DNA of 40,196 bases from a candidate division Zixibacteria bacterium 4484_95 (GTDB taxonomy: Bacteria > Zixibacteria > MSB-5A5 > UBA10806 > 4484-95): positions 1 to 40,196 of the forward strand of contig NATP01000006.1 in assembly GCA_002085375.1 (NCBI GenBank), in the 5' to 3' direction. The notes under the pieces were generated by a model. The model saw only the letters and a program-made list of their open reading frames with translations. It had not been told where the DNA came from and searched no databases. This document shows, piece after piece, positions 14,202 through 18,348 of this stretch (positions are counted from its first letter, which is position 1; each line of letters begins with the position of its first letter). The position numbers and the translations under genes are program-made.

Positions 14202-15119
14202 TTAGGATTCAAAAATAATCGATTTAAATATATATTTCATCGGATCAACCGCTCGGCCGTTCTCACGAACCTCATAATGAAGATGGGGTCCGGTGGAATA
14301 TCCTGTTGAGCCTACAAGTCCAATGATATCTCTTCTCTTAACTCGTGCTCCCTTACGCACCTTGGCCATACTCAAATGACCATAATAAGTTTTCAATCCG
14401 TAACCGTGGTCGATAATAACAGTGTTGCCAAATCCTTTATCCCACCCGCAATAGATTACTTTACCATCAGCCGCTGCATAAATGGGAGTACCCTTATTGG
14501 CGGCAATATCTATCCCCCGATGCATCTGATAGATTCCGGTAAACGGGTTTGGCCGCATACCAAAGCCCCGTGATATCAAACCCTCGACAGGCATTATTGA
14601 CGGAGTGTGGTCAAGTATATCTTTCTTAGATCTCACCTTATCAAAAACATCGGAAAATGAAGCATTCTCCAGCTTGATCTGCCTTAATATCTTATCAATA
14701 TCCCCCTCCACTAAGGATAATTCGTTAACGGTTTGAGATTCGATATCAACCATTTTAAAATCTTGACCACCGACTCCGACCTCACGTATTGAAGGGTCAA
14801 TCGCTGGCAAATCAAATACAAGCCTTATATTTTCATCGGTCTTAATAATGTCTGCCATTTGGCCCTTGATTGATTCAACGGATTGCTGTAAACTTTCAAT
14901 TTTTCCGGCCAGATAATCGTTTTCGGCCTTCAAAGAAGCCAGTTTATTGCGATCGATATTAGCCTTTAAATAGCCGATTACAGAAAATACACTGCATATA
15001 AAAAACAGTGTTAAAATTGAAAAGAGAGTTACAATTTTCCACAGAACAATTCTTTTTTCGACCACTTTTCCGGTATCATCCGGAATTATCACTACAGAAA
15101 ACTTCCTTGGGGGCATCAT
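14202..15119 (-). CDS. M23-family (LytM-like) metalloendopeptidase, membrane-anchored
   Basis: Zinc endopeptidase domain expected to cut peptidoglycan cross-links, or a LytM/EnvC-like regulator of amidases. A single membrane helix (residues about 28-50) follows a basic cytoplasmic tail. A coiled coil is seen at about 55-95 and the Peptidase_M23 domain at about 185-295. Zinc ligands are present: HRGIDIAANKG (H and D) and HLHYEVRENG (HxH), with the conserved GYSTGPHLHYE context, so it is probably active. The domain faces the periplasm. GGGAGG precedes the ATG. It has its own promoter (15150-15178) and terminator (14150-14175), so it is probably monocistronic. Confidence 0.94.
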   Translation of the reverse strand: MMPPRKFSVVIIPDDTGKVVEKRIVLWKIVTLFSILTLFFICSVFSVIGYLKANIDRNKLASLKAENDYLAGKIESLQQSVESIKGQMADIIKTDENIRLVFDLPAIDPSIREVGVGGQDFKMVDIESQTVNELSLVEGDIDKILRQIKLENASFSDVFDKVRSKKDILDHTPSIMPVEGLISRGFGMRPNPFTGIYQMHRGIDIAANKGTPIYAAADGKVIYCGWDKGFGNTVIIDHGYGLKTYYGHLSMAKVRKGARVKRRDIIGLVGSTGYSTGPHLHYEVRENGRAVDPMKYIFKSIIFES

Positions 15120-15149
15120 TCCCTCCCTGGCAATTTCAAGGTTAGAGCA

Positions 15150-15178
15150 AATTTAAAAGGAGGGTTAATATTTGTCAA
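15150..15178 (-). promoter_or_regulatory. Promoter of the M23 peptidase gene
   Basis: Minus strand TTGACA (15178-15173), 17-bp spacer, TAAATT (15155-15150), about 30 bp before the start codon. Confidence 0.6.
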
Positions 15179-15183
15179 GTTCA

Positions 15184-15324
15184 TTATTTTATTAAAAGAT
15201 AATCCCTTTTTAAAATTTTACCCACAACCTTGATAAACTTCTCAGCATTTAAAGCCTGTAAGCTGTAAAGGTGCCAGCATGTTTTTTCAGGCAGTTTGAA
15301 GCCCGGTTTGCGCTTTTTTGCCAT
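15184..15324 (-). CDS. Possible small basic protein, 46 aa
   Basis: Unrecognised. The frame opens MAKKRKPGFKLPEKTCWHLY and runs 46 codons to a TAA. AAAGGA lies six bases or so before the ATG, a good ribosome-binding site. The ATG overlaps the stop of a preceding short frame as TAATG. The product is Lys-rich with no obvious membrane helix. It ends 6 bp before the -35 of the M23 promoter. It may be a real small protein or the remnant of a decayed gene; comparison with relatives would decide. Confidence 0.4.
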   Translation of the reverse strand: MAKKRKPGFKLPEKTCWHLYSLQALNAEKFIKVVGKILKRDYLLIK

Positions 15325-15365
15325 TACGGTTCCTTTTTCCGGGCCCACCAAAAAAACTTACGATG

Positions 15366-15422
15366 TCAAACAGCTTCTGCAAGTTCTATCGGCAGGCTAA
15401 TTATAACCTTAAGGGTTTTCAT
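15366..15422 (-). pseudogene. Short frame resembling the start of a ribbon-helix-helix protein, broken by TGA
   Basis: Reads MKTLKVIISLPIELAEAV and then TGA. The pattern KTLKVIISLPIELAEAV resembles the N-terminal strand and first helix turn of ribbon-helix-helix repressors (K-x-x-V-x-I-S-L-P-x-x-L). After the TGA the same frame stays open for 14 codons up to a TAA that overlaps the next ATG. The start overlaps the stop of the upstream 25-codon frame as ATGA. Likely a remnant; the resemblance is by eye and short. Confidence 0.25.
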
Positions 15423-15496
15423 CTCCTGCAAAACCTACCTAAAAGTTTGCAATATCTATTCCATCTCTTAAAGACACGGTTTAAAAATGGGCGCAT
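15419..15496 (-). CDS. Possible 25-aa basic peptide
   Basis: Reads MRPFLNRVFKRWNRYCKLLG and ends after 25 codons; it is very rich in Arg and Lys. AAAGGA is eight bases upstream of the ATG. Its stop overlaps the next ATG (ATGA). It begins 19 bp after the perfect palindrome at 15515-15528. Not recognised; could equally be chance. Confidence 0.2.
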   Translation of the reverse strand: MRPFLNRVFKRWNRYCKLLGRFCRR

Positions 15497-15514
15497 AAGG
15501 TTATTCCTTTGTAG

Positions 15515-15528
15515 GTTAACATGTTAAC
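15515..15528. promoter_or_regulatory. Perfect 14-bp palindrome, candidate operator
   Basis: GTTAACATGTTAAC is a perfect palindrome. Outside it, GGTTATT at 15499-15505 and AATAACC at 15529-15535 are also inverted copies. It lies just ahead of the minus-strand mini-ORFs, where a repressor site would be expected; no direct evidence of binding. Confidence 0.35.
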
Positions 15529-15535
15529 AATAACC

Positions 15536-15906
15536 AAAAAGAAACCTAAAGATCTTTGGGACTGCAAAAAATATGGGATTTTACCTATAATAAATGACTT
15601 ATGCCAATAACAAATTGCTATACCAAACCGATTATGAAAAAGCGCAGATAAAAATCATATCGAATAATTAAAGAGATTCTCATTAGAAGAACTGATTTAG
15701 TCGATATGTTACTATTAAACTTGAAAAATGTGACAAAGATTAGGTAGTAATGATTGAACACAACATCTATACTTACCACTACCTCATAGAATTAATATGC
15801 GGGACAGCAATCTTGCCCGGGGTAGATGATAAACTGGCGGGTTTTAATTTCTGACATTAACTATGAATAAATAGTCAGCTTCGGGGAGTACACCATAGAC
15901 CAAAAG
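15536..15906. other. Intergenic stretch without a supported gene
   Basis: AT-rich sequence between the palindrome and the terminator of the RNA-binding protein gene. A 34-codon plus-strand frame at 15750-15854 has a poor ribosome-binding site and no recognisable product. A TATTAT element on the minus strand near 15590 might serve the mini-ORFs. Nothing else was seen. Confidence 0.5.
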
Positions 15907-15934
15907 AAAAAGGCGGCCTTGCGAGACCGCCTTT
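15907..15934 (-). terminator. Intrinsic terminator after the RRM protein gene
   Basis: AAAAGGCGG and CCGCCTTTT are perfect inverted arms with a 10-base loop. Minus-strand transcripts read the hairpin and then a T run. It lies 18 bp after the RRM gene stop. The symmetric A/T flanks would allow it to work both ways. Confidence 0.85.
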
Positions 15935-15951
15935 TAAGAGAATGTATTTAT

Positions 15952-16614: not shown

Positions 16615-18348
16615 TTAGAAGCTCGTTTCAGTCCTAACCATTACCACCGGGCTTTTGCCAACGTCATCTAACCTCTGGGCGATATCGAGACGGATAGCGT
16701 CGCCAATTATAAACCCGAGACCAATATCACCTTTATAATCGCTTTTCTTAAATTCATCTTCGCCAAATCCCGCCTTGCCCACATCAACGAACAAGGAGAT
16801 GATGAAATCACCAGAGAACTCCCAGTAATAGTCAATGTTACCGAACACATACCTGTTGCCAAAAAACTCCTTATAATCATAACCCCTTAATGAACCAACA
16901 CCACCCAGGAAAAACCATCGGTCCAGAGGCAGTTTTTGGTCTGAATAACCCCCCTTTGCTCGAATTCCCAAATATTGTTTTGGGGTCAACGGTTGATAAT
17001 GCGAGATTAACGCCTCGATGATGTCATAAGAGAAATCTCCGCCCAAATCACCGACCATTCCATCACCTGCTGTTTCCCATAAGACTTCTATAAACTGACC
17101 ATTATGAGGCCAGATGTCATCACTTCGGGAATCCCATGCGAACCTTAGGCCGGCAAGTCGCAAATCACCCTCTATGCTCATGAGAGCGACCGAGTCAGAT
17201 AGCACGGTCGAGAAATTTTCGCGGAAATGTTTCTTTCCGCCAAAGATAGTTTTGTTGGTACGTTTTTCCAAGATGCCATTAACCTGGGCAGTGTATTCAA
17301 CCTGGAGAGATGAATATTCTCCCAACTGTTGACCAAAATATACCATAGCCCCTTTTTTATGATAAAAGTCATGGTAATCCTCTTTGAAGAAAAGTCCGGC
17401 TAATGTATTTTCAGACTGGCTGAATCGCCACAGGTCAGGAGTAGTGGCTCCCTGGTAAAGATTTCCACCGAAATAGAATGCCCACTTGTCCCCGAACTGC
17501 TGTCGAAATCCTAAATCGTAATTCCACCTTTTTAAGGCGAAAGAATATCCGACATTGATGTCTATATCAGGAAGTTCATAGTCGGCTTCGCTATAATGAA
17601 TACCGGAAAGCAGGGTAAAGCCCTCAACACGGTTAAATCTTGCCGACATATCGAAATCGGTCTTTCTTGTTCCCTCATGTAACTTCTCTTTAGGCAAAAG
17701 CTCACCTTTGATTTTTAAGTCACCAAAAGTGAGCACCTTGCCAAATGGGGCAACAACATCACCACCAGCAAAACTGCCGTCATACATCTCCACATCACCG
17801 AAAACCGAGACGATATCACCGAGCACCTCTCCGTAAACTCTGACATTGCCAACGATTGAAACCACATCACCACGAATCACTTCATCAGCATTTATTACCA
17901 AATCGTCAAAACTGAATCGGTCATCCTTACCATGTTTCTCTACATTGACCACCTTTTTACGGCATAACTCATAATCATCATTGAGAATTTTCGCCTTTAC
18001 CGATATACCTCTGTGAATCTTACCTGAGAAAAACAGGTTCTCGATTTCATCACTGGAAAACTCAACGCCATCAATGACTATCCTGTCACCGTCGATTATA
18101 AGCTCATTTTCGATATAAAGGCTAGAAAGGTCAGGTTTTTCGTCTGGGGCTTTTTCGACAGACAATTCGCTTTTATTAAAGGTTATAGTTTTAAGGATTC
18201 CATTGTAATCTTTTAACGAGACGGTAACGGAGTCATCTTTTATTGTTATCTCAATTGACCCCATGGCGATTTTTTCGCTACCCGCTGAAAGGGCTATCGA
18301 AAATAAAAACAAAATCAAAATAATCGCTAAATGATATTTCTTGCCCAT
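16615..18348 (-). CDS. Outer-membrane protein: bactofilin-like solenoid joined to an Omp85/BamA-type barrel
   Basis: Exported protein of 577 aa with signal peptide (HLAIILILFLFSIALSAGS). Residues about 140-215 form short repeated turns (GDVVSIVGNVRVYGEVLGDI, then GDVEMYDGSFAGGDVV) like the polymer-forming cytoskeletal (bactofilin/YvlB-type) beta-helix. From about 225 to the end is a surface-antigen (D15/Omp85) beta-barrel: FAWDSRSDDIWPHNGQF resembles the DTRD..P..G motif, and GGVGSLRGYDYKEF is the VRGY-like L6 signature. The C-terminal residue is Phe, the usual barrel-insertion signal. No POTRA domains are evident. GAGGG precedes the ATG. Function is unknown; it is probably a surface or transport barrel rather than BamA itself. 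Confidence 0.85.
   Translation of the reverse strand: MGKKYHLAIILILFLFSIALSAGSEKIAMGSIEITIKDDSVTVSLKDYNGILKTITFNKSELSVEKAPDEKPDLSSLYIENELIIDGDRIVIDGVEFSSDEIENLFFSGKIHRGISVKAKILNDDYELCRKKVVNVEKHGKDDRFSFDDLVINADEVIRGDVVSIVGNVRVYGEVLGDIVSVFGDVEMYDGSFAGGDVVAPFGKVLTFGDLKIKGELLPKEKLHEGTRKTDFDMSARFNRVEGFTLLSGIHYSEADYELPDIDINVGYSFALKRWNYDLGFRQQFGDKWAFYFGGNLYQGATTPDLWRFSQSENTLAGLFFKEDYHDFYHKKGAMVYFGQQLGEYSSLQVEYTAQVNGILEKRTNKTIFGGKKHFRENFSTVLSDSVALMSIEGDLRLAGLRFAWDSRSDDIWPHNGQFIEVLWETAGDGMVGDLGGDFSYDIIEALISHYQPLTPKQYLGIRAKGGYSDQKLPLDRWFFLGGVGSLRGYDYKEFFGNRYVFGNIDYYWEFSGDFIISLFVDVGKAGFGEDEFKKSDYKGDIGLGFIIGDAIRLDIAQRLDDVGKSPVVMVRTETSF

Follow-up and report, generated by a model that had tools for sequence, protein, structure and literature searches.

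A gene in a 40,196-nucleotide stretch of DNA from candidate division Zixibacteria bacterium 4484_95 (contig NATP01000006.1; the whole stretch is referred to below as the window) encodes what is almost certainly an Omp85-type outer-membrane barrel whose POTRA region has been replaced by a bactofilin-like beta-solenoid. The open reading frame (ORF) occupies 16615..18348 on the minus strand in the ORF list and translates into 577 amino acids. Computation established the order of the domains, the fold of the barrel, the likely fold of the solenoid, and that the pair is widely conserved; the parts of the gene are as follows.

16615..18348, minus strand: whole gene, with signal peptide, beta-rich N-terminal stretch, bactofilin-like solenoid, and Omp85 barrel (ORF, Pfam, and model)
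18286..18348, minus strand: probable Sec signal peptide, residues 1-21, without a lipobox Cys (by eye from the sequence)
17926..18285, minus strand: beta-rich N-terminal stretch, residues 22-141, alignable in Zixibacteria relatives (alignment; low-confidence model)
17695..17925, minus strand: bactofilin-like beta-solenoid, residues 142-218 (regular short strands in the model, and structural matches to 6ria and 2n3d)
17842..17871, minus strand: solenoid turn GDVVSIVGNV, residues 160-169 (sequence motif)
17791..17820, minus strand: solenoid turn GDIVSVFGDV, residues 177-186 (sequence motif)
17734..17763, minus strand: solenoid turn GDVVAPFGKV, residues 196-205 (sequence motif)
17668..17694, minus strand: short linker from solenoid to barrel, residues 219-227 (model; predicted local distance difference test [pLDDT] below 50 at residues 219-228)
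16618..17667, minus strand: Omp85 beta-barrel, residues 228-577, 16 long strands (PF01103, model, and structural matches)
16879..16890, minus strand: LRGY (L6-type) motif, residues 487-490 (alignment)
16618..16620, minus strand: C-terminal Phe577 (alignment)

An Omp85 Barrel without POTRA Repeats

The barrel shares with the Omp85 superfamily (BamA, TamA, and Sam50) the 16-strand fold, an LRGY-type motif, and a C-terminal aromatic residue. In Pfam it matches the Omp85 family PF01103 over residues 307-538 with 67.5 bits against a cut-off of 24, and no POTRA is found in the protein at E ≤ 1, so that the POTRA-less Omp85 barrel behind a signal peptide that a first, sequence-only reading of this DNA had proposed is borne out. 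That reading had also described a D15-like barrel with LRGY and a terminal Phe, and both elements prove to be conserved: in an alignment of 23 sequences the Gly of the motif (G489) is invariant and the Arg (R488) at least 90% conserved, as is Phe577, which is invariant in a 19-row alignment. The pattern (V/L)RG(F/Y) is the motif of Omp85 loop L6. The NCBIfam models that respond to the protein are BamA, Omp85-family, and TamA, all below threshold, and a sequence search of the whole protein against the PDB returns TamA barrels only. The nearest named relative, from a Candidatus Zixiibacteriota assembly, is 53% identical.

A near-threshold match to DUF5686 (PF18939; 37 bits against a cut-off of 39.2, residues 235-382) indicates that the first half of the barrel resembles this family; the N-terminal part differs from that family, and a relative from the Ignavibacteria (L075), assigned to the DUF5686 type by eye only, has a different N-terminus as well. 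Toastrack families (DUF4097 and LiaF-like_C) give no match in the protein at E ≤ 1.

Structure prediction had been suggested as a check on these claims. The AlphaFold2 model of the whole protein, calculated from 19 sequences with a mean pLDDT of 71, shows 16 long strands from residue 228 onward, with pLDDT means mostly of 75-97 and lowest blocks of 55-69. Among the best 50 structural matches, the barrel aligns with Sam50, BamA, and TamA at Z scores of 20.6-23.2 over 277-307 residues, and most of these alignments begin at residue 219-232 of the window protein; the best Foldseek E value of the barrel model is 6.3e-13.

The Solenoid and Its Resemblance to Bactofilins

Ahead of the barrel, residues ~142-218 are modeled as short strands stacked into a regular ladder, with 10-residue pLDDT means of 64-87; residues 1-36 and 66-141 stay below 50. 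No ordinary POTRA is detected in the region, and the solenoid is not unstructured in the model; the range of residues 100-230 named in the sequence-only reading reaches too far toward the N-terminus. When the soluble part was modeled alone (12 sequences, mean pLDDT 56), most of the solenoid lay at 74-87. A second-look structural aligner placed the Thermus bactofilin 6ria on top (Z 9.1, 77 residues aligned, root-mean-square deviation [rmsd] 2.8, 21% identity), the sole chain at Z ≥ 8 among the 842 aligned to this model. The second rank is held by a flagellar-structure chain, 8z5u (Z 7.7), nearly tied with the third, the bactofilin BacA 2n3d (Z 7.6, 80 aligned, rmsd 3.6), and below rank three mostly other beta-helical chains follow. 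The predicted models therefore make it likely that a fold of the bactofilin type precedes the barrel.

The repeats can also be recognized in the sequence. The turns of the type GDVVSIVGNV noted at the outset occur three times, starting at residues 160, 177, and 196, and the motif GDxVxxxGxV, which was written down after the sequence had been seen, did not reach three copies in any of 50,000 shuffled versions of this 81-residue stretch. A test for a 17-residue period on the single window sequence was not significant; one relative (L054) has 17 extra residues, corresponding to one rung, inserted with respect to the other rows of the alignment.

The bactofilin assignment is firmer in homologs. 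In the KSB1 phylum, L057 and L059 match PF04519 with 49.4 and 50.8 bits (cut-off 27.9), each in an ORF that also matches Omp85, and together with L275 (described below) they pass the cut-off of the family. At a threshold of 0.1 both show three bactofilin stretches each, and L107, the same gene as L059, shows one at 0.001. The solenoid is thus repeated ahead of the barrel in a KSB1 subgroup, in L057 and L059 by Pfam and in others by eye. A scan of 24 KSB1 proteins at E ≤ 1e-3 found Omp85 in 24/24 and bactofilin in 11/24. These 24 come from 30 fetched loci; left out were L133 (barrel only), L109 (cut), L125 (a near-copy of L124), and L131, L134, and L135, for which the ORF filter found nothing.

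It should be noted that several results speak against a bactofilin relationship of the window protein. PF04519 does not match it at E ≤ 1, and only 3 of 23 Zixibacteria proteins have a bactofilin match at E ≤ 0.01. When the profile of the soluble part was compared with that of 17 canonical bactofilins, the match was weak (P 0.0029, probability 10.7%), and searching solved structures with the former profile gave no convincing relative. Foldseek found no match for the soluble model at E ≤ 0.001; it was the second-look aligner that paired the model with bactofilins, and with this tool best Z scores of 7-8 are common without a clear relative.

Nor is the polymerizing domain envisaged in the sequence-only reading supported. 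According to PMC12364344, copies of Thermus bactofilin meet N-to-N and C-to-C in the stack, substitutions are most damaging at the C-to-C interface, and a hydrophobic residue of the F105/F130/L110 type occupies that interface. Canonical bactofilins were detected with PF04519 in 26 of the 30 relatives searched (hand count, E < 1e-20), and in the 17 of these 26 loci that gave an ORF, a Phe near the C-terminal end is invariant. The window solenoid shares its predicted fold with 6ria and 2n3d and differs from bactofilins in being short and in lacking a clear counterpart of this Phe: five solenoid-barrel proteins, inspected by eye and with the register uncertain, show no matching Phe in their last rung. 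Moreover, the C-terminal face of the fused solenoid leads directly into the barrel. Because the Phe is not evident and this face runs into the barrel, full two-ended filaments of the window protein are unlikely; it may instead dimerize or cap another solenoid.

Distribution across Phyla

A scan of genome contigs with the single window protein as query found no relative. Profile searches, counted by hand, gave matches to solenoid plus barrel in 106 of 132 genomes of the phylum to which the window belongs (its own genome included), in 43/82 genomes of the KSB1 phylum, and in 29/40 genomes of the Caldithrix phylum, where all 25 of the fetched loci match a solenoid profile. Counted were rows in which the match covers the solenoid and extends into the barrel, that is, starting on the 483-position model at or before position 54 for Zixibacteria, 63 for KSB1, and 35 for Caldithrix; barrel fragments at contig ends were excluded, and some of the counted Zixibacteria matches (e.g., G026 and G051) end inside the barrel. 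The WOR-3 phylum has a match in 11 of 60 genomes. For the Latescibacterota phylum a barrel match was found in 33 of 60 genomes, and none of 25 fetched loci matches a solenoid profile.

The search for the same pair of domains elsewhere, as had been proposed, thus recovered it in the Zixibacteria, KSB1, and Caldithrix phyla, and we have hardly any doubt that solenoid plus Omp85 barrel is a real and conserved architecture. The expectation that it would be unusual stands in one respect and falls in another: it is no one-off, being the common state in its phylum, and it was not found described. In the open-licence PMC literature, with matches judged by title and start of the abstract, no paper on a bactofilin-Omp85 or bactofilin-BamA architecture was found, nor, in the same literature, any paper holding both toastrack and bactofilin or any two of DUF5686, DUF4097, and Omp85. 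The ten bacterial Omp85 subfamilies treated in parts of PMC4104836 carry POTRA, WD40, patatin, metallo, or no N-terminal domains, so POTRA-less members are known from that source, and the word bactofilin is absent from its main text. The solenoid-barrel architecture therefore appears to be undescribed.

A Periplasmic Slot with Changing Occupants

Two WOR-3 genes carry POTRA in addition to the solenoid. L275 encodes, in one ORF, a bactofilin domain (28.3 bits, cut-off 27.9), POTRA (59.2 bits), and Omp85, and L276 has the same order with a bactofilin match below threshold at 23.4 bits.

L275, 1498-3618, minus strand: bactofilin-POTRA-Omp85 gene
L276, 310-2502, plus strand: bactofilin-POTRA-Omp85 gene

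Because POTRAs are periplasmic and the solenoid of L275 and L276 precedes them, the solenoid is placed on the periplasmic side of the outer membrane. The signal peptide and the barrel likewise indicate a periplasmic location for the window protein, unlike the cytoplasmic skeleton formed by bactofilins. A known parallel is PlpD, an Omp85 protein that likewise keeps an additional domain other than POTRA in the periplasm (PMC11116518); PlpD has a patatin-like (phospholipase) domain together with POTRA, whereas the window protein has a solenoid and, in contrast to POTRA-bearing Omp85 members generally, no detectable POTRA. A fusion of this kind, with a non-POTRA domain ahead of an Omp85 barrel, would fit a passenger that its own barrel delivers to the surface of the cell, an idea once put forward for PlpD. 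As the domain of PlpD itself stays periplasmic according to the same paper, we regard a surface passenger as very improbable.

In related barrels the position of the solenoid is taken by other domains. Toastrack (DUF4097) domains are combined with a related barrel in Latescibacterota L063 and L066 and in WOR-3 L074 and L279; in L279, Pfam at 0.01 gives the toastrack only, and the barrel was assigned with the barrel profile. Toastrack-type beta-helices ahead of a related barrel, with signal-peptide-like starts, were seen in L241, L243, L277-L280 (L279 among them), and L282. Parts of PMC11237479 unite the toastrack domains, tie them to envelope stress, and predict them to be cytoplasmic; the signal-peptide-like starts observed here stand in contrast to that prediction. 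The Latescibacterota barrels L225-L240 carry LamG, HEAT, or DUF4252 ahead (five proteins tested with Pfam), and relatives L060, L064, L067, and L068 have no N-terminal domain or only a short linker. Since a bactofilin-like domain is conserved across phyla and a toastrack beta-helix stands in its place in others, the pattern suggests that Omp85 proteins use beta-solenoids repeatedly as a periplasmic module.

The hypothesis that all barrels with a solenoid form one clade was rejected when tested against a quick tree built from 78 barrels (approximately unbiased test, p 2e-6). On this tree, which has long branches, many open deeper forks, and domain labels assigned partly by eye (L281 is labeled toastrack although the toastrack profile gave no match), presence and absence of the solenoid require at least six changes. 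Gains, losses, or replacements of the solenoid have thus probably happened more than once.

This variation bears on what the solenoid does. One possibility is that it substitutes for POTRA repeats, binding client polypeptides or chaperones by edge augmentation and passing them on to the barrel; the protein would then be a translocase or assembly factor like BamA, TamA, or FhaC with another receptor domain, and neither polymerization nor scaffolding would play a part. Conservation of barrel and LRGY motif would agree with this, as would the position of the solenoid ahead of the POTRAs in L275 and L276; however, a slot occupied in relatives by toastrack, DUF4252, LamG, or nothing fits a constant receptor task poorly, and no client-like family stands out among the families common to at least three compared loci. 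We consider a POTRA substitute unlikely, if a serious contender. If the barrel were instead a mere anchor or pore, with the solenoid a passive spacer or a remnant without a partner, the barrels L060, L064, L067, and L068 without any N-terminal domain and the shortness of the solenoid would be readily understood. Such passivity is difficult to reconcile with a solenoid kept over large divergence (in the 106/132, 43/82, and 29/40 genomes counted above), with its repetition in the KSB1 subgroup, and with the conservation of the Arg-Gly of LRGY at 90% or more, and it seems improbable to us.

A Proposed Docking Arm in the Periplasm

The explanation that we favor is that the barrel retains some role in outer-membrane biogenesis or remodeling, and that the solenoid, hanging in the periplasm, is an arm for docking or assembly. 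Its partner in end-to-end or edge-to-edge stacking would be a like solenoid, either another copy of itself or the membrane-bound bactofilin-like protein of related genomes; periplasmic toastrack beta-helices would be an alternative partner. Stacking would position or gate the barrel and in this way serve envelope homeostasis. For docking or assembly as the role of the solenoid we see about equal grounds for and against, and the same balance applies to the docking-arm explanation as a whole; the link to envelope stress is more tentative, and is rated lower because an extracytoplasmic function (ECF) sigma gene was confirmed in only one of 20 KSB1 loci.

A candidate partner is present in many of the 30 relatives mentioned above, which carry, besides the canonical bactofilin, a frame of 380-500 amino acids with a weaker bactofilin match; several of these frames combine a solenoid with hydrophobic, probably membrane-spanning C-terminal segments (helices by eye). 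Against a profile of this membrane-bound type, 20 loci gave 10 strong (E < 1e-30), 7 weak, and 3 no matches. An ECF sigma gene adjoins in 8 of the 10 strong loci and a toastrack gene in 6, one of which (L172) supplied seeds for the profile; the remaining 10 loci have neither. One or both of these neighbors are found in nine of the strong loci (L166-L172, L176, and L179), and the tenth, L033 (1-954, contig C32 of the genome from which the window comes), is cut at the contig end. In L167 the frame runs on, by eye, into a toastrack-like C-terminus. The gene on C32, cut as it is, is the one membrane-bound-type gene of that genome, which also has a 425-amino-acid frame on C8 with a bactofilin match and no match to the membrane-bound-type profile, and a canonical bactofilin on C23.

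A solenoid system anchored in both membranes, in which the solenoid-barrel and the membrane-bound solenoid protein stack directly or via toastracks, is a long shot. If true, such stacking would bridge the periplasm with a structure that bears load or senses stress, the equivalent in this compartment of the bactofilin skeleton in the cytoplasm. With the solenoid-barrel set, concrete proteins are available for asking whether the assembly of solenoids ties outer-membrane proteins to envelope-stress control.

Neighboring Genes

The richest neighborhood is that of KSB1 locus L056, where two barrel genes of the solenoid-barrel type surround genes for an ECF sigma factor, a zf-HC2/HEAT protein, three DUF4097 proteins, and one Toast_rack_N protein. 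Across 20 KSB1 loci, a LiaF-like_C family occurs in 11 (LiaF-like_C is over the cut-off in the four members tested): in seven as the next listed ORF downstream on the same strand after a gap of 11-182 bases, in four at 1.5-3 kb downstream. A DUF4097-profile gene is found in 4 of the 20, bringing toastrack-type genes together to 12/20. The single ECF sigma gene among these loci (L193) lies on the other strand about 4 kb away, so the ECF sigma link rests mainly on L056.

Among 21 Zixibacteria loci, the window included, neighbor families, named by Pfam on representatives, comprise a histidine kinase (11 loci), a sigma-54-type response regulator (9), a DUF4390-type gene (13), and a protein kinase (9); a two-component operon is present in about half of the loci. 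The neighbors thus give a hint, from gene content, of envelope signaling. Counting against this, along with the scarcity of ECF sigma genes in KSB1, no toastrack- or ECF-sigma-profile gene lies near the barrel gene in the 20 Zixibacteria loci or in the window, and the window locus is without two-component neighbors.

Upstream of the window copy lies what is presumably an aminopeptidase gene, and an aminopeptidase-type gene is also near the homolog in L050 and L051. Downstream follow an RNA-binding-type gene and an M23 peptidase gene, both named by eye. Between these two, an interval of ~830 bases (15120-15951 of the window) has no ORF of at least 80 amino acids and no Rfam match at gathering score. 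The peptidase is given below.

14202-15119, minus strand: M23 peptidase with one membrane helix and a coiled coil (by eye)

This gene, 1.5 kb from the solenoid-barrel gene, was considered as the mark of a bactofilin operon and dropped, as a homolog was found in 0 of the 20 Zixibacteria solenoid-barrel loci; it is a paralog of the M23 peptidase that accompanies the canonical bactofilin gene in 23 of 26 loci.
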